DNA from: a virus
IMG/VR virus record: IMGVR_UViG_3300025577_000005
Location: 25,432-89,431 of that record
Strand: one strand, 5' to 3'
DNA length: 64,000 nucleotides
The translations under genes and the position numbers were made by a program. The notes beneath the pieces are model-generated. The model made no database searches. It saw only the letters and a program-made list of their open reading frames with translations, and was not told the origin of the DNA. Of the stretch, positions 26,197 through 51,591 are shown piece by piece (the stretch's first letter is position 1; each line of letters begins with the position of its first letter).

Positions 26197-26204
26197 TATT
26201 TATT
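26197..26204 (-). promoter_or_regulatory. Late-promoter-like AATAAATA before the adhesin gene
   Basis: Minus strand CAATAAATATAAAAAAGTC, 19 bases upstream of the adhesin ATG. It differs from TATAAATA only at the first base, as do the copies before the 50950 and 57076 genes, so it fits a late promoter for a virion gene. Confidence 0.6.
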
Positions 26205-26682
26205 GTGGAGAATACTTAATTGCAACCGTAAATCGATGACCATTCCGAAATGATGTTGCACGATGTAAAATCCTACCATCAAACATGACTAATCGATTTG
26301 GTATTGGAATCACACCATAAATGTTCTCATCCACATAAAATTGTGTCTCCCCTCCTTCTTGTAAATCAAATCTATCATTCGCATAATGTAAAAATGTAAC
26401 TCCCTCCCCATCAGTATGAAAATATGGATTCTCATTTGGAGCAAAACAATTAATATACATCCGATATAATTTCATATTAGAAAGAAATGAACATTTATCC
26501 ATTAACTTCTTACGAAATAACTTATATACAAATTCTGTCTCTGGTATGTTATGCACCATTCCCGTCACAATATCATCACCATTATCACTCTCACCATAAT
26601 GATATGATGCATTTAAACAATAATCCCGAACAATCTTAAATTCTTTATTTTCTAAAAAATTATCATCAAAATTAATTTCCAT
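26200..26682 (-). CDS. 2-oxoglutarate/Fe(II)-dependent oxygenase, second copy (160 aa)
   Basis: A compact oxygenase with H89-T-D91 in NPYFHTDGEG, distal H140 in GRILHRATSF and R150 in NGHRFTVAIKY. This is the full facial triad plus the arginine for 2-oxoglutarate. QEGGETQFYVDEN is a typical core-strand segment. The start MEINFDDNFLENK at 26682 has GGAG 9 bases upstream; an ATG five codons earlier is possible. It overlaps the preceding oxygenase gene by 11 bases and ends inside the adhesin promoter region. Substrate unknown. Confidence 0.85.
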   Translation of the reverse strand: MEINFDDNFLENKEFKIVRDYCLNASYHYGESDNGDDIVTGMVHNIPETEFVYKLFRKKLMDKCSFLSNMKLYRMYINCFAPNENPYFHTDGEGVTFLHYANDRFDLQEGGETQFYVDENIYGVIPIPNRLVMFDGRILHRATSFRNGHRFTVAIKYSPQ

Positions 26683-27319
26683 GTTTTCGATCTCCATATT
26701 GTTTGATCCAAATATTAAATGAAATTGATATTCTTGGATTGTTTGGTGTCGGATCCGACTTACTCACATAATGACTCAAATATGGTGGAAACATTAATAA
26801 ATCACCCTCACGAACATAAGGTGACCATCTACCATTACCATAATAATTTGAATCCATCTCTATTGTATTATATCTTTTTTCCTCAATCGGATCAACAAAT
26901 ATTACTGGTTCATGAACTTCTGAGTCAAATTTTAAATAATGAATACAAGAGAAATGTGATCTTCTTGAGAAAACATCAAAACTTGAATGTGTGTGCTGTT
27001 CCTGAAATTCACCTTTTGAATAAACATTTAACCAAATATCATCAAACTCAAATTCAACTGGTTTATCAAAAAACTTTTTTACATAATCATGATAGTACTT
27101 GAAAAATATACTATCCTCATGAAAAATAAATGAATTAATTTCATTTATATCAAATGTAGTAAACAGACTGTCAGTCAACCAACCATCAGGAACTTTTAAA
27201 TTTTTTTTCTTATAAAGATATTCGATTTTATCTAATACATCATCTAAGATTAATCCGTTTTCACGAATATTTGTCTGAAACAAATGTATAGGAAATAATA
27301 CTTTCTTATAACGATTCAT
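26672..27319 (-). CDS. Putative 2-oxoglutarate/Fe(II) oxygenase, third copy (215 aa)
   Basis: Carries H109-T-H111 in FQEQHTHSSFDVF, distal H183 in MFPPYLSHYVSK and R196 in NPRISISFNIW. The GDLLMFPPYLSHYV segment is the usual C-terminal strand of phage oxygenases of the QEPHxH type. The first ligand pair is H-x-H rather than H-x-D, as in a recognised subgroup of these phage proteins. It lies directly upstream of and overlaps the second oxygenase gene, so the two are probably made together. Confidence 0.75.
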   Translation of the reverse strand: MNRYKKVLFPIHLFQTNIRENGLILDDVLDKIEYLYKKKNLKVPDGWLTDSLFTTFDINEINSFIFHEDSIFFKYYHDYVKKFFDKPVEFEFDDIWLNVYSKGEFQEQHTHSSFDVFSRRSHFSCIHYLKFDSEVHEPVIFVDPIEEKRYNTIEMDSNYYGNGRWSPYVREGDLLMFPPYLSHYVSKSDPTPNNPRISISFNIWIKQYGDRKHGN

Positions 27320-29450: not shown

Positions 29451-29921
29451 TTAGGTGTCCATTGCTTCGGCACTATAGACCGTTGTCTGTGCTAGAAATA
29501 GAAACTTCATCATATCATGTTCACTATCACTTTGACCGTCTAATCTCTTTGCAGGATCTAATGTATTACCCATTAATATTTTTCCTCCTCCCAATCTTTT
29601 CTTACATAGGTCAACATTATCTCTCATAATATCCACACCATAGATATCTTTAAGTGCATCTTCCTCACTCATATTATGAAACAACACTTTCACCCACTTG
29701 ACTGCTGTTAGAAACTGACCATCTCCACATGCAGGGTCAAGAACTGTTTTGCCTGATACAAACTCATCCGTACCACATTCACGAATCATTCTTATCACCA
29801 AATCAGTCGGAGTAAAAACCTCGGCTGTTACTTTGACTCTGTATTCGTCACGATTAATCTCACCCATATAAGAGTGATCATTCATCCTATTCTTTACTTC
29901 ATCCCACAATTTGTCTGACAT
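29451..29921 (-). CDS. N6-adenine DNA methyltransferase half: motifs X and I-III (156 aa)
   Basis: Contains VTAEVFTPTDLVIRM (motif X, FTPTDLV at 36-42), then KTVLDPACGDGQFLTA (motif I, DPACGDGQF at 62-70, AdoMet binding) and GVDIMRDNVDLCKKRL (motif II). It ends soon after, so the catalytic motif IV is missing. That motif is the first thing in the upstream gene. The two ORFs are in different frames and overlap by 23 bases, so they may be two subunits, or joined by frameshifting. Start chosen at MSDKLWDEVK (29921), inside the upstream gene, with an AAGAGAGAG-type site. Confidence 0.8.
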   Translation of the reverse strand: MSDKLWDEVKNRMNDHSYMGEINRDEYRVKVTAEVFTPTDLVIRMIRECGTDEFVSGKTVLDPACGDGQFLTAVKWVKVLFHNMSEEDALKDIYGVDIMRDNVDLCKKRLGGGKILMGNTLDPAKRLDGQSDSEHDMMKFLFLAQTTVYSAEAMDT

Positions 29922-30822
29922 ACACTCTCTCTTGTTCTGTGATGTTGAAGAAATCAAACACATCATCATCACTCATTTTACAATCAATTGGTAAATTTGG
30001 CAACCTACAAAATACTTTCTCATTACCAAACCCAGACCATTTTGCAGTCTTGAGAATATACTTCATTAGCGTACTATTCAGGTTATGTGTTAGATTCTCT
30101 CCCGATTCTTTATCATTCACCAACACATAATATACCATATCAGTACCACCTAAAATACCATCATCATAAACTGGTTTTGTATATCCACTCCGTGACCACA
30201 TTACTTTCTTCTTTGATGCCCAATCCTGTCGAATTCGTGAATACCAAGTTTGTTTGTTTGTGTGTAGAATTGGATGACTATCAATAAACTCTTGTTTAGT
30301 TTTAATGTCACAACAGTTATCCCACTTATTGATGATACCAGTCTCCCGTAGCAAATTCACGTTATGACACGTCACATAATCATATCTTACATCAAGGTGC
30401 TCTCTTATCTCAAACATTACCTTATTATGAACAGATAAGGCATTTTCTGATAAATCTATAGGCAAATAGAACACTGAATCATCTATTTTACAGTCAAATG
30501 TACCGTCTTGAGTAACAACTTTAGTTTTTTCGATGCCGGGACGGTTGGAGACCATATAGTCGGCGAACGTGCTTCCCACTTCAGGAAAATAAGTTTTTGT
30601 ATCTAAGTTCAGAAACTTCACTGCCTTAGACTTAAACAGTTGCAGAATCTTACTGGATGGTGATAAGAAACTACTAGGAGAAACCTGAAGGAGAATACCT
30701 CCAGGTTTTAACCACTCACTGAATGTTTTCTGTGTAAAGTCAATCCATAGCTTATGTTGTGTCTTCTTCTTATTGGTAGAATCCTGAAATGGTGGATTCG
30801 TTACTATTATATCAAACTGCAT
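29899..30822 (-). CDS. N6-adenine DNA methyltransferase half: catalytic motif IV-VIII and recognition domain (307 aa)
   Basis: Opens MQFDIIVTNPPFQDS, placing the catalytic NPPF (motif IV) at residues 9-12, followed by KPGGILLQVSPSSFLSPSSK (motif V-VI region) and a C-terminal part (about 180-290) with aromatic loops (WSRSGYTKPV, KWSGFGNEKVF) suited to target recognition. It lacks the AdoMet-binding DPACGDG, which is in the following ORF. The order IV-TRD then X-I is that of permuted (beta-type) methyltransferases, although the NPPF form is more typical of gamma types. It probably methylates adenine N6 only with its partner. Confidence 0.8.
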   Translation of the reverse strand: MQFDIIVTNPPFQDSTNKKKTQHKLWIDFTQKTFSEWLKPGGILLQVSPSSFLSPSSKILQLFKSKAVKFLNLDTKTYFPEVGSTFADYMVSNRPGIEKTKVVTQDGTFDCKIDDSVFYLPIDLSENALSVHNKVMFEIREHLDVRYDYVTCHNVNLLRETGIINKWDNCCDIKTKQEFIDSHPILHTNKQTWYSRIRQDWASKKKVMWSRSGYTKPVYDDGILGGTDMVYYVLVNDKESGENLTHNLNSTLMKYILKTAKWSGFGNEKVFCRLPNLPIDCKMSDDDVFDFFNITEQERVYVRQIVG

Positions 30823-30905
30823 ATTCTCTTAGAGGTGATTTATTTAATTAAACAAACCAATCTCCAATGAGAATAATGTCGTTATACTTTATCTGTTAGA
30901 TTAGA

Positions 30906-31982
30906 TCAAACATACTCACGAAACATATCAATCTTCACATAATTTTCCTCATCCTCAAGATGATTATACCCATAAAGTTCAAAATTTGCAAACATTATAT
31001 GAAGTCGCTCATTAATAAATTCTTCCCTTGTTTCGGGAGAAATATATTTATTTTGCAGAGAAAACTGAATAGCAATCTTTGCATAATTAATCAAAGTTTT
31101 TCTCCAGGTCTCTCTCATTGTTTTCACTTCTTCTGCCGTTTGTGCTTTTTTAGTGAAAATAATGTGACGAATCTTATTATTTGGATTCATAAACAAATTC
31201 CACAATTTAGCAGGAGCATTTGCGCCAGCGTCATCCATACAAATCAAACTGACTTTATATCCATCATTACCATTTCCAAGTTCATGATCTTTGACTTCTT
31301 GCTTAATTACTCTCTCATCTTTATCATTGATTTTCACAGCAGTGGAAAATCCTTTGTTTACTAAATTTCTGATAGTTCCCCTTGGAACTTTATGCCAAAA
31401 TACCTGATTGATTCCAAACTCTGTATCATAAGCATGATCAAATTCATCATCCCCATAGATAATTTCTCCGGTCACAGGATTAACGGGTTGCCCATGATAC
31501 CAGGAAATACCTTTATCTTTTTGTGCCCACATTTGTTGTGCAATTTGCTTCATACTCAATTCTCTATGTGGTTTATGTTGCAGATCAGCAGACATCGCCT
31601 CAGAAAATGATGATATTCTTTCATCATATCCCTCAACAGGTGTCATTAACCTAGTTGGATAATACTTATATCCATTGTTTTTAAGAATATTATGACGAGT
31701 TCTAGCACTCTTTCCTGAAACATTATTTGTCCCAGGGATAGGAACTGCATGTCCTGGTTCAAAAGAATGATCAAATCCCGTTGCTTGTAAATTACTCTCT
31801 ACTTTTTCATAATTTGTGTGATCATTTATTTTAGTATTTGCATCACACTCATAATCAGACTCCCAATTTTCAATTGGGATCATCTTAACATCTCCACCAT
31901 CAATCCATTCATACCCCTCTTTACAATCGGGTGCTTTTGGAAATTTTTGTGCGTTAATTACGCCGAAGGAATGCTTACTCAT
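30906..31982 (-). CDS. Unknown protein in the methyltransferase/nuclease island (358 aa)
   Basis: I chose MSKHSFGVINAQKFPKAPD at 31982; a TTG 17 codons upstream would place the start inside a hairpin. Recognisable pieces are HAVPIPGTNNVSGKSARTRH, VEGYDERISSFSEAMSADL, FDHAYDTEFGINQVFWHKV and SLICMDDAGANAPAKLWNLF. I do not recognise a family. Its location between a nuclease-like gene and a split methyltransferase suggests a specificity or partner subunit, but that is inference from neighbourhood only. No membrane segment. Confidence 0.7.
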   Translation of the reverse strand: MSKHSFGVINAQKFPKAPDCKEGYEWIDGGDVKMIPIENWESDYECDANTKINDHTNYEKVESNLQATGFDHSFEPGHAVPIPGTNNVSGKSARTRHNILKNNGYKYYPTRLMTPVEGYDERISSFSEAMSADLQHKPHRELSMKQIAQQMWAQKDKGISWYHGQPVNPVTGEIIYGDDEFDHAYDTEFGINQVFWHKVPRGTIRNLVNKGFSTAVKINDKDERVIKQEVKDHELGNGNDGYKVSLICMDDAGANAPAKLWNLFMNPNNKIRHIIFTKKAQTAEEVKTMRETWRKTLINYAKIAIQFSLQNKYISPETREEFINERLHIMFANFELYGYNHLEDEENYVKIDMFREYV

Positions 31983-32020
31983 TGTTTTTTTAAAGGTTGT
32001 TTCAAGAATACCATGTATAT

Positions 32021-32052
32021 ATGAATCTTTCAAGTGAGTTTGAAAGATTCAT
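32021..32052. promoter_or_regulatory. 11-bp perfect inverted repeat (ATGAATCTTTC / GAAAGATTCAT)
   Basis: Arms at 32021-32031 and 32042-32052 with a 10-base loop, in the gap between the nuclease-like gene and the unknown gene. It could be an RNA hairpin in the leader, or an operator. Its ATGAATC/GATTCAT ends match the arms of the inverted repeat at the island promoter (33260-33287). No T-run follows, so it is not a simple terminator. Confidence 0.65.
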
Positions 32053-32072
32053 TAATAAATCAAAACATTAGA

Positions 32073-33215
32073 CTACATATAGTCTTTTAATTTAAGATAC
32101 ATGTTTGTAGATGTTGCAAGTTCTTTACTCTTACGTGGTCTTCTTTGACCCCACTTAAGCATAAACTTTTTACCTTTATCATTCTTTTCACGAACACCCT
32201 CAAACTTTGGTTCATTGGTTGCAAACCATGCTCCATTCTTTTGCAGTGTGCATGGTTGATTAATACTAATGATTACACCATCAGCATCACAGATATGATA
32301 GAAAACTGATTGTCCTCTACTCTCCAACTCAACATGAGTTGCTGCCTTTACACGATTGCAAAGTTTATGATAATCCTCATTAGTAACAGAGAATAGATAT
32401 TCACCTTTACCAAGACAGAGTAGATGCTCATCAGATACTAAACCAGTTGCTTTCTGCATTCTACCAAGAACCGATTCATTAGGTAGAAATGAAAGTGCCT
32501 CAACAACAAGAGGTGCAACTTCAGTACCAACAGAAGAACAATCCTTCTTCCACTGATCTGCTACATTTTCATAATGCTCTGCCTCTGGACTATTAATATA
32601 GTAGTCACGAATACTATCATTAATATTATCCAACTTACCAAAGAAAGGAAGTAATTCAGGATATTGTCTCATTACAAGTCCATCACGATACTCTCTATTG
32701 CTTCCCTTAAACTTTACACCATAAGGTGAAATATACATTCCAGGAGAACAATCAGTATTATCAAATAAGATGTTATTTAATGTAGAATTAAATGTTCCTG
32801 AACATACCTGAATAGAAGAATATCCATTCTGATAATTCTTAACACTAACAGAGATTTTCTCACCATCATCAAAATGAATAAGAATATCACCTTTCTTTCC
32901 TAAATTGCGATACTCTGTATCTACACACTGAAAATAAAACTTACGATCAGGATATTTCTTAATAAGATCCTGAACTATAGACTGATATGTTGCTTCTATA
33001 TTTTTAGAATACTTACTCTTAGAGAACTTAGTCTCAATATTACCGTCTACACATGCCTTCTCAAATTCCTTATTGATTTCTGAAGAAATGCTCTTAGAGG
33101 CAACTCCTAATCTCTCTGCCTCTTCTTGTAAACGTGCGGTCAATCGAATCTCTGCTGCATCTTGAATATAATGCTCGATTGATGTTCCTGCACCTTGCTT
33201 TTTTGTTTTGGACAC
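32073..33215 (-). CDS. Putative PD-(D/E)XK-type nuclease, first gene of the island (380 aa)
   Basis: A GTG start (33215) is preceded by AAGGAG 9 bases upstream. The central segment GKKGDILIHFDDGEK then ISVSVKNYQNGYSSIQV has D110 and K126 arranged like the core of restriction endonucleases (G-D, beta strand, x-V-K). S124 occupies the usual acidic position, so the assignment is not secure. The C-terminal half has no recognised domain and ends with basic patches (KKFMLKWGQRRPRKSKEL). It is followed by an unknown gene and the split methyltransferase, as expected of a restriction-modification-like unit. Confidence 0.5.
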   Translation of the reverse strand: MSKTKKQGAGTSIEHYIQDAAEIRLTARLQEEAERLGVASKSISSEINKEFEKACVDGNIETKFSKSKYSKNIEATYQSIVQDLIKKYPDRKFYFQCVDTEYRNLGKKGDILIHFDDGEKISVSVKNYQNGYSSIQVCSGTFNSTLNNILFDNTDCSPGMYISPYGVKFKGSNREYRDGLVMRQYPELLPFFGKLDNINDSIRDYYINSPEAEHYENVADQWKKDCSSVGTEVAPLVVEALSFLPNESVLGRMQKATGLVSDEHLLCLGKGEYLFSVTNEDYHKLCNRVKAATHVELESRGQSVFYHICDADGVIISINQPCTLQKNGAWFATNEPKFEGVREKNDKGKKFMLKWGQRRPRKSKELATSTNMYLKLKDYM

Positions 33216-33259
33216 AATTACAATCTCCTTAAAGACTAATGTTGATCGGGGATTTCTCC

Positions 33260-33297
33260 CATGAATCTAATATATCACCGATTCATGGTAATGTCAA
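33260..33297 (-). promoter_or_regulatory. Sigma70 promoter with inverted-repeat operator at the -10
   Basis: On the minus strand TTGACA (33297-33292), 17 bases, then TATATT (33274-33269). The arms CATGAATC (33260-33267) and GATTCATG (33280-33287) form a perfect 8-bp inverted repeat flanking the -10 with a 12-base gap. This is the expected site for a dimeric repressor or activator of the nuclease/methyltransferase genes. Confidence 0.75.
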
Positions 33298-33328: not shown

Positions 33329-33745
33329 CTATTCCTCATTTAACCACTGATCATATAGCCTTACTTCTTCCTTCCGTGCCTCAATTTCATGTGGTTGATC
33401 CCAATAATCATAATTCTCCACCGGTTCCTGACAATACCTCATTTTTCCATGATGAAACCGCAGAGAACCACCTACCCACTGTGCCAGATGAGTCAGTTCA
33501 TGAAAAAGAGTTTTTATATACATCTCCTCAGACATACGTGCCTGAAGTTCAATCAAGAAGTGTCGTGGCCGATAATCATTACCAATCACATCACAATACC
33601 CAACAACACCATCACGTTTGAGACCTTTATGTTCAATCTCTACCACAATTTTGTGTCGTGGGAAAAATTCACTCAAAAACCAATGGGCAATATCCTCACA
33701 CCGTTTTTGAGAATAACCGTATCCACTATGAAAGATGTAAGACAT
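33329..33745 (-). CDS. SprT-like/gluzincin-type metalloprotease (138 aa)
   Basis: Contains LFHELTHLAQWVGG, the HExxH zinc-protease motif (HELTH), with a later HEIEARKEE that supplies a possible third ligand. SprT-like proteins in phages and bacteria act as small zinc peptidases, some on DNA-protein crosslinks. The N-terminal part (MSYIFHSGYGYSQKRCED) and the C-terminal acidic end (LYDQWLNEE) fit a compact single domain. I chose the ATG at 33745, as the longer frame opens with TTG. Confidence 0.7.
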   Translation of the reverse strand: MSYIFHSGYGYSQKRCEDIAHWFLSEFFPRHKIVVEIEHKGLKRDGVVGYCDVIGNDYRPRHFLIELQARMSEEMYIKTLFHELTHLAQWVGGSLRFHHGKMRYCQEPVENYDYWDQPHEIEARKEEVRLYDQWLNEE

Positions 33746-33803
33746 GTTCCCCAATGTAAAACCCAGATAAAAGATGATAAGAATAAAAGTTTTTCTTTAG
33801 CAG

Positions 33804-51012: not shown

Positions 51013-51108
51013 TCATGTTAGTCACTCACCAAAAGAAAACCCTATCATATAATCTTCATTTCTCGCAGAGTGACTTTACATATAGTGGGGCTAACTCCTT
51101 CCCCTGAG

Positions 51109-51193
51109 TGCGAGTAGGGAGACTTGAACTCCCACGAGCACAATGCTCAACAGATTTTAAGTCTGGTGCGTCTACCGATTCCGCCATACTCGC
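51109..51193 (-). tRNA. trnL-UAA: tRNA-Leu (anticodon UAA)
   Basis: An 85-nt tRNA with acceptor GCGAGTA/TACTCGC, discriminator A, the expected GGCGGAATCGGTAGACGC D-arm of leucine tRNAs, anticodon loop CTTAAAA (anticodon TAA), a long variable arm (TGAGCATTGTGCTC) and a T-arm with GTTCAAGTC. The CCA end is not encoded. It would read UUA, a favoured codon in AT-rich phages. Confidence 0.95.
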
Positions 51194-51194
51194 A

Positions 51195-51368
51195 AGGCAT
51201 TACACTTATCCGTATGCTATGTGGGCATTACACCCAGTATACTGACAGTTTATAATGGAGTAAGACACAATTTCCGTTGTGAATATCCAAGGGGGTTTAT
51301 CCTCACTTACAGGGTTTCGGTATATCCGAACCGATGAGCACCTTGGTTGGAACGTCTCAAGTTCCTAA
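51195..51368. other. Spacer between tRNA-Leu and tRNA-Met with short repeats and hairpins
   Basis: No tRNA or ORF is supported. It has GGCATTACAC twice (51197-51206, 51228-51237), the second within a TGGGCATTACACCCA stem, a near-palindrome TATACTGACAGTTTATA, and a GGTTCGG/CCGAAACC-type hairpin. These may be processing signals or decayed tRNA sequence. Confidence 0.4.
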
Positions 51369-51441
51369 TGCTTCCTGAGAGGATCGAACTCTCCTTAGGC
51401 AAATTATGAGTTTGCTGCATTCACCAGATTGCTAAGGAAGC
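51369..51441 (-). tRNA. trnM-CAU: tRNA-Met (anticodon CAU)
   Basis: A 73-nt tRNA: acceptor GCTTCCT/AGGAAGC, discriminator A, anticodon stem GCAAA/TTTGC with loop CTCATAA (anticodon CAT), T-arm GAGAG/CTCTC with TTCGATC. As a CAT tRNA it could also be an isoleucine tRNA with modified C34 (reading AUA), which the sequence cannot decide. The CCA end is not encoded. Confidence 0.93.
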
Positions 51442-51444
51442 AGA

Positions 51445-51517
51445 TAGTGTAGATGACAGGGTTTGATACCTGCAATACTCTCCGAAGAGGCGTGTTTTCT
51501 TACATCACAACTACACT
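51445..51517 (-). pseudogene. Degenerate tRNA-like element
   Basis: A 73-nt cloverleaf-like sequence between the Met and Ile tRNAs. It has a perfect 7-bp acceptor stem AGTGTAG/CTACACT with a 3' A, and a short D-arm GTG/CAC whose loop lacks GG. The middle arm has only a 4-base loop (CTCT-TCGG-AGAG), so no readable anticodon. The T-arm loop has 8 instead of 7 bases (TATCAAAC, as if TTCAAAC had gained one base). It may be a decayed tRNA or a processed spacer. Confidence 0.6.
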
Positions 51518-51519
51518 AA

Positions 51520-51591
51520 TAGGAATGCCGAGAATTGAACTCGGATGACCCCGTTATAAGCAGGGCGCATTAACCATTATGCGACACTCCC
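51520..51591 (-). tRNA. trnI-UAU: tRNA-Ile (anticodon UAU)
   Basis: A 72-nt tRNA: acceptor GGGAGTG/CATTCCT with two G:U pairs, discriminator A, anticodon stem CCCTG/CGGGG with loop CTTATAA (anticodon TAT), T-arm with GTTCAATTC. It would read AUA, a rare codon in many hosts but common in AT-rich phages. The CCA end is not encoded. Confidence 0.9.

Follow-up and report, generated by a model that had tools for sequence, protein, structure and literature searches.

A stretch of 64,000 nucleotides (nt) from the virus record IMGVR_UViG_3300025577_000005 (hereafter the window; all coordinates are positions within it) carries on its minus strand an island of four consecutive genes. The island very likely constitutes a phage-borne Type II restriction-modification (R-M) cassette that combines a nuclease specific for TTSAA with an N6-adenine methyltransferase whose two separately encoded halves assemble in trans, a catalytic half (C-half) and an S-adenosylmethionine (AdoMet)-binding half (N-half). 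The window is part of a record of 89,431 bases, and family searches show its genes to be similar to genes of T4-like cyanophages. The features of the island, in the direction of transcription, including its open reading frames (ORFs; protein lengths in amino acids, aa), are as follows:

33269–33297, minus strand: sigma-70-like promoter TTGACA-17-TATATT upstream of the nuclease gene, by consensus match only
33261–33286, no strand: inverted repeat ATGAATC-N12-GATTCAT overlapping the -10 region, a candidate operator
32073–33215, minus strand: nuclease-like ORF of 380 aa, GTG start
32013–32060, no strand: hairpin in the gap between the nuclease and 358-aa genes, arms of 21 nt, 86% complementary
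30906–31982, minus strand: ORF of 358 aa from its ATG, or 375 aa if an upstream TTG is used
29899–30822, minus strand: C-half ORF of 307 aa, protein start MQFDIIVTNPPF
29451–29921, minus strand: N-half ORF of 156 aa, ATG start, with EVFTP...DPACGDGQF

The four genes behind one promoter are all present where an initial sequence-only reading had placed them. The promoter is the single exact match to TTGACA-17-TATATT within the 89,431-base record, and the repeat half-sites noticed in that reading correspond to the inverted repeat over the -10 region; matches of this type with at most one mismatch occurred in 8 of 100 shuffles of the window, which makes the repeat uncommon but not decisive. The C-half and N-half genes share an overlap of 23 nt, and gaps of 90 nt and 83 nt precede the second and third gene, respectively. 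In three relatives (loci L099, L118, and L015), the start of the C-half falls within the 3′ end of the 358-aa gene, which supports, at the level of sequence, a single operon of four genes. The hairpin between the first two genes holds two TTSAA sites, and their methylation could affect it.

Judged by their sequences, the 307-aa and 156-aa proteins correspond to a single gamma-type N6-adenine methyltransferase divided into two halves, a permuted, split variant. The 307-aa protein starts a few residues before motif IV (NPPF) and continues with the catalytic subdomain and a target-recognition region; it matches Pfam Eco57I (E = 9.1e-8), weakly TaqI_C (0.018), and phrog_3689 (2.9e-18). The 156-aa protein represents the AdoMet-binding part, with an FTP region, motif I (DPACGDGQF), and motif II (YGVDIMRDN); it matches Pfam N6_Mtase (1.4e-6) and phrog_21201 (1.6e-15), and its profile matches the methylase BseCI (0.0014). 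A sequence search of the PDB with the C-half returned only weak, unrelated rows. Both halves match adjacent parts of shared single-chain models, in the gamma order and opposite to the order of the genes: in PADLOC mad2, the N-half at 273–335 (2.2e-5) is followed by the C-half at 357–436 (6.6e-5), and in PDLC03021, the N-half at 164–235 (0.0068) is followed by the C-half at 272–359 (9.5e-6). The characteristic motifs I and IV of the gamma class are present together with the family matches, but its linear order (AdoMet, catalytic, and target regions in one chain) is replaced by two chains with the catalytic half encoded first. The NPPF motif of the C-half points to methylation of adenine. The sequence-only reading had correctly assigned NPPF and DPACGDGQF to separate proteins and recognized a split N6-adenine methyltransferase with the catalytic half first, which turned out to be a widespread module and not a one-off.

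The 380-aa protein had no accepted match in any profile library (Pfam, PHROGs, PADLOC, and NCBIfam), and a PDB sequence search returned only weak, unrelated rows. Its AlphaFold model, based on a 14-sequence alignment, has a predicted local distance difference test score (pLDDT) of 87.6. The first three rows retrieved with this model by VIA-align were HinP1I (Z 7.3; 217 residues, root-mean-square deviation 4.5), HinP1I again (Z 5.8), and MspI (Z 5.1), followed by a row with Z 3.9 and by HhaI at rank 5 (Z 3.6). EcoRI (Z 2.4) lay among unrelated rows and was not used. D110 and K126, the residues that had marked the protein as nuclease-like, are invariant together with S122 and Q136 in all 14 aligned rows, including that of the window. 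This moderate structural match suggests that the 380-aa protein is a PD-(D/E)xK-like restriction endonuclease of the HinP1I/MspI fold type.

The profile and structure searches proposed as a check led to restriction enzymes in the case of the 380-aa model. For the 358-aa protein, no family was accepted in Pfam, PHROGs, PADLOC, or NCBIfam, also when three of its relatives were searched. The 358-aa protein had no match among GenBank phages and was matched in six IMG/VR loci. Its gene lies between nuclease and C-half in all phage cassettes except L117; it was not detected in L117, in nuclease-only loci, or in the actinobacterial loci L138–L140. A ParB-like appearance, noted by eye, was unsupported by any search and is not claimed.

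The nuclease was found in 26 IMG/VR loci. A C-half adjoins it in nine, of which four (L095, L096, L098, and L116) are 100% copies of the window nuclease locus; neither C-half nor N-half is present in the available DNA of the other 17, some of which have little or no downstream flank. The nuclease also occurs in L015 and in two GenBank phages (each in the database twice). The order nuclease, 358-aa protein, C-half, N-half is kept down to 35% nuclease identity. Among bacteria, the nuclease adjoins both halves in three of the 80 loci listed of 109 (L138, L139, and L140; Cellulomonas, Geodermatophilus, and Micrococcales); L140 has the same gene order as the phages, and in L138 and L139 the nuclease is on the opposite strand. 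A search for the nuclease across the order of the Cellulomonas genome matched one of 297 genomes, that genome itself, and a plasmid search with the nuclease of L140 gave no match. A restriction-enzyme-like gene and methyltransferase halves in one cluster represent the layout of a Type II R-M system, with presumably cognate partners. The alternative of an orphan modification unit, raised in the sequence-only reading, does not agree with a nuclease-like gene two genes upstream of the methyltransferase and a conserved gene order.

The target of the nuclease was sought on the rationale that phages with a restriction nuclease but without its methylase should be free of its site, by comparing observed counts with those expected from Markov models. 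S-SZBM1, P-RSM6, G000, G019, and G027 were counted whole; 80,000 of 81,534 bases were counted in G020, 60,000 of 60,216 in G022, and 200,000 of 204,930 in Bellamy. For G026 (162,717 bases), 100,000 bases entered the first comparisons and 160,000 a later stretch-by-stretch count. The nuclease-only group comprised six records in which C-half and N-half were not found. The controls were 17 cyanophages in whose whole genomes the nuclease was not found (for the 16 other than Bellamy, the first 100,000 bases each were counted); all were searched for the N-half, which was not found in 12, and the other five carry both halves.

Of 507 five-base classes, none was more depleted in the nuclease-only records than TTCAA, which together with TTGAA constitutes TTSAA. 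Observed and expected numbers of TTSAA in five of the six records were 0/504, 0/441, 0/214, 0/163, and 0/126 (0/1,448 in total). The sixth record, G026, has 179 sites, all in the first 60 kb and only five of them beyond 50 kb, and none from 60 to 160 kb, the stretch that carries the nuclease. This contig, which harbors L112, changes between 50 and 60 kb from a normal TTSAA content to none and looks like an assembly chimera or a (fresh) recombinant. TTSAA is likewise zero in all 17 nuclease-only loci and in four further contig stretches, with overlaps among them and with some of the six records. By contrast, TTSAA is present at 0.82–1.11 of expectation in 17 of 17 controls, including phages of the same hosts, S-CREM1 (CB0101; 440/466) and P-SSM4 and P-RSM3 (NATL2A; 425/402 and 404/384). 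Phages with both nuclease and methylase also keep the site, with 463/509 in the window phage (89 kb) and 247/286 in a second long contig.

The purge acts on DNA, because the codon TTC is avoided before AA-codons in nuclease-only records. In S-SZBM1, phenylalanine (Phe) before an AA-codon is encoded by TTT 172 times and never by TTC, compared with 943 TTT and 1023 TTC elsewhere. The share of TTC among Phe codons in this position is 0/172, 0/215, 0/51, and 0/55 in four nuclease-only records, 31/106 in the window phage, and 112/143, 76/123, 57/157, and 43/124 in four controls. The purge is not wholly silent, as the dipeptide Phe-Lys/Asn falls below expectation in S-SZBM1 (172/243) and G019 (51/77), but not in G020 (55/54).

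One could argue instead that the nuclease serves to degrade host DNA and is unrelated to the methylase, with the split methylase acting as an orphan that guards against host restriction. Such an arrangement would agree with the 17 loci without C-half or N-half, with S-SZBM1 and P-RSM6, which lack both halves over the whole record, and with the many phages that carry C-half and N-half without this nuclease. It is improbable, however, given that TTSAA is erased where the nuclease stands alone and kept where it stands beside the two halves, and that the same pairing recurs in three actinobacterial genomes.

Several observations weigh against the interpretation as a TTSAA-specific R-M cassette. 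The two long contigs with nuclease and methylase encode identical nucleases and represent near-identical strains, and the shorter, more distant loci with both lie below expectation, though far from zero (L099 41/55, L014 16/24, L117 14/19, L118 24/37, and, lowest, L015 19/43). Four of the six nuclease-only records are possibly incomplete contigs and might contain an unseen methylase. Two other sites, which among 1,939 six-base classes that do not contain TTSAA are the most depleted relative to the controls, are scarce in the nuclease-only group: CGATCG (3/57 versus 111/114 in controls) and ACTAGT (18/107 versus 298/374). Other pressures therefore also act in this group, but no other site is wholly lost where so many copies would be expected. 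Moreover, the purge shows a pressure against TTSAA that is linked to the nuclease, and a linked gene could be the cutter. Foldseek places HinP1I first but weakly (E = 0.16, probability 0.38), Z scores below 8 can come from a common arrangement, and the middle acidic residue of the PD-(D/E)xK motif is a serine in the 380-aa family (S-V-K), a position at which HinP1I and MspI likewise deviate. A single model of a fused C–N protein failed (mean pLDDT 52) and lends no structural support to an assembly of the halves.

The depletion of CGATCG would also fit an explanation in which host restriction or another phage gene caused the loss of TTSAA and the 380-aa protein recognizes another sequence, as would the fact that cyanophages purge other sites too; CCGG, for example, is zero in 11 of the 17 nuclease-free phages of the Kyanoviridae panel. 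This explanation is the least probable of those considered: phages of the same hosts keep TTSAA, the site is absent from nuclease-only contigs and present in every control, and in G026 it is absent only from the nuclease-bearing part. CCGG itself was rejected as the site of the nuclease on account of its absence from those nuclease-free phages, even though it is zero in the six nuclease-only records and would fit the match to MspI. It represents a second purged site, whose counts match or approach expectation in the window phage, ACG-2014f, and S-SKS1. Further purged or depleted sites are TCGA in S-SSM4 (0/172 in 100 kb) and CANTG in Bellamy (189/760) and P-SSM2 (176/416).

An R-M system is favored over an orphan unit because of the restriction-enzyme-like fold, the conserved combination of nuclease, C-half, and N-half, and the loss of TTSAA only in the presence of the nuclease and the absence of the methylase. 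The phage-borne R-M system proposed in the sequence-only reading thus gains support from the moderate fold match, from the recurrence of the cassette in divergent phages and three actinobacterial genomes, and from the pattern of TTSAA loss. From this evidence, we infer the enzymatic activities, the exact cut, the assembly of the halves, and the biological target. The 380-aa nuclease would most likely cut 5′-TTSAA-3′ (TTCAA/TTGAA), and C-half and N-half would assemble in trans and methylate the adenine in TTSAA. Methylated phage DNA would be spared, which would allow the 463 sites in 89 kb to be kept, and unmodified DNA would be cut, with the host chromosome or rival phages as likely prey. Nuclease-only relatives would be safe through having no TTSAA left. 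Carriers of the nuclease appear to be protected by one of two routes, methylation or the erasure of every site.

The split methyltransferase extends well beyond this cassette. Among GenBank phages, the N-half of the window matches 85 records and another N-half 86. A scan of IMG/VR with five N-halves yielded at least 245 loci, and of the best 80, 79 were examined (L017 is the same as L016 and was dropped). A small separate ORF encodes the N-half in these 79 loci, and a C-half gene is located directly upstream in 67, overlapping or at a distance of at most 30 nt. Among the seven loci scored as having no C-half, L049, L051, and L067 do have an overlapping one beyond the 80-nt overlap limit, no more than about 100 bases separate the N-half from the locus start in L042, L064, and L089, and L076 has none. 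Both halves were detected in the same 30 of 32 records searched with both profiles, a sample drawn from earlier matches and not random; the remaining two, S-SZBM1 and P-RSM6, have only the nuclease. Conservation is strong in the N-half (CGDGQF, YGVDLMxDN), and the C-halves are more diverse. In 61 adjacent C-halves, the start of the catalytic domain is present; it lies at most 25 residues from the ORF start in 22, as in the window, behind a longer N-terminal extension in 31, and in ORFs of at least 700 aa in eight. A second N-half-like domain (N′) was found within 16 of the 61 ORFs.

The presence of N′, in some cases with the motif DPAxGGGQF, is compatible with the possibility that the small AdoMet protein is independent and that the C-half uses its own degenerate AdoMet domain, so that no split enzyme exists. 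This is very improbable in view of the 22 window-like ORFs, which leave no room for an AdoMet domain ahead of the catalytic domain, and of the existence of natural C–N fusions. In the Aeromonas phages phiAS5 and Ah1, both halves are in one chain with the catalytic half first, and two further copies of the fused chain occur in IMG/VR (69% and 68% identity). The failed model of a fused protein mentioned above is that of ORF0215 of phiAS5 and was unusable (pLDDT about 30 in the C part), and the C rows of the mixed alignments A8 and A10 were misaligned and kept out of folding.

The module occurs in further forms. The halves are annotated as 036/037 in P-SSM2, as 86/88 with gene 87 in between in Bellamy, and as gp114/gp115 in PKO111, with a GIY-YIG-like start read by eye. 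ACG-2014f has one N-half and two C-halves about 100 kb apart, and ratios of C-half to N-half above one were found in L056 (4:1), L062 (3:1), and L047 (2:1); the contig of L087 has seven C-bearing ORFs, three of them with N′, for one N-half. In bacteria, among the 80 rows listed of 109, an N-half gene followed by an N′C gene is found in most of those from Bacteroidales and Clostridia.

Several C-halves are attached to, or separated from the N-half by, other proteins. In the phages PKO111 of Klebsiella (L006:2524-4459) and PSD9 of Shigella (L128:2485-4450), the C-half follows a GIY-YIG-like N-terminus, again by eye, and overlaps the N-half gene near a primase gene. A protein of 187–200 aa lies between the halves in Bellamy (L007:3638-5853) and ACG-2014f (L005:3995-6311); that of ACG-2014f weakly matches Mrr_cat (E = 0.12) and is perhaps another nuclease swapped into the module. 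The C-half forms the end of ORFs of 1,140–1,243 aa in L043, L044, L049, L051, L067, L073, L078, L082, L083, L090, and L092, and a similar protein of ME01 has helicase-like motifs by eye.

Taken together, we mildly favor a joint reading in two parts. Some phages would wield a frequent-cutting Type II enzyme without its modification enzyme and be safe by having erased hundreds of TTSAA sites, with relatives protected by the methylase; and a phage-wide methylase family would share one conserved AdoMet subunit among catalytic/target subunits that can replace one another, so that many sequences could be methylated in a modular fashion, with N′C and fused C–N forms as intermediates of circular permutation by duplication. 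This would provide a phage restriction enzyme with a recognition site that can be tested directly, obtained without a wet-lab lead, suggest two alternative routes of self-protection from the same dangerous enzyme within one phage family, and explain why the codon usage of some marine phages is so strongly biased, with no TTC ahead of AA-codons. Through the split methylase family, phages of cyanobacteria, Aeromonas, enterobacteria, and Prevotella are connected to bacterial loci. Its natural forms (N′C + N, C + N, C–N fusion, and one N with many C) offer material on the circular permutations of DNA methyltransferases, and the separately encoded halves a convenient start for switchable methylation tools.

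In the surroundings of the island, a weakly SprT-like gene (33329–33754) is located immediately upstream and two 2OG-Fe(II) oxygenase-like genes (26200–27319) downstream; genes for tRNA-Leu, tRNA-Met, and tRNA-Ile lie at 51108–51591.

There are precedents for R-M systems, for restriction enzymes encoded by phages, and for split methylases. The main text of a paper on site avoidance (PMC6286503) does not refer to cyanophages, Synechococcus, Prochlorococcus, or TTSAA. A description of the cassette was not found in a literature search, an absence that is weak evidence, as most subscription journals were beyond reach. As far as these searches show, an order-swapped split adenine methylase family in many phages, a shared AdoMet subunit, and the erasure of sites instead of their methylation are new.

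HinP1I, HhaI, and MspI, the best structural matches of the 380-aa model (10–11% sequence identity over aligned residues), recognize GCGC and CCGG, sites that lack A, unlike TTSAA; CCGG was rejected for the 380-aa protein. The source of the restriction enzyme AgsI is Agrococcus, an actinobacterium, and actinobacteria also carry the homologous cassette (L138–L140). AgsI is listed with the recognition sequence TTSAA (PMC5931654), the same site as that proposed for the 380-aa protein; the two were compared by site alone. With the gamma N6-adenine methyltransferases of the Eco57I/TaqI/BseCI type, the phage enzyme shares the match of both halves to neighboring parts, but it is encoded by two genes, with the division between motifs III and IV and the order swapped. 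A class of methyltransferases with two or three subunits is mentioned in PMC4335053, and the available part of a survey of jumbo-phage adenine methylases (PMC7824862) mentions circular permutation and, within that part, no split methylase halves. Complementation between fragments of M.SssI is reported in PMC3404938; M.SssI, however, is a cytosine-5 enzyme fragmented by design, whereas the enzyme of the window is a natural, order-swapped adenine methyltransferase of the gamma type found in many phages. The split methylase gene of Campylobacter is frameshifted, whereas the phage module consists of separate halves, in some cases with several catalytic halves for each AdoMet half.

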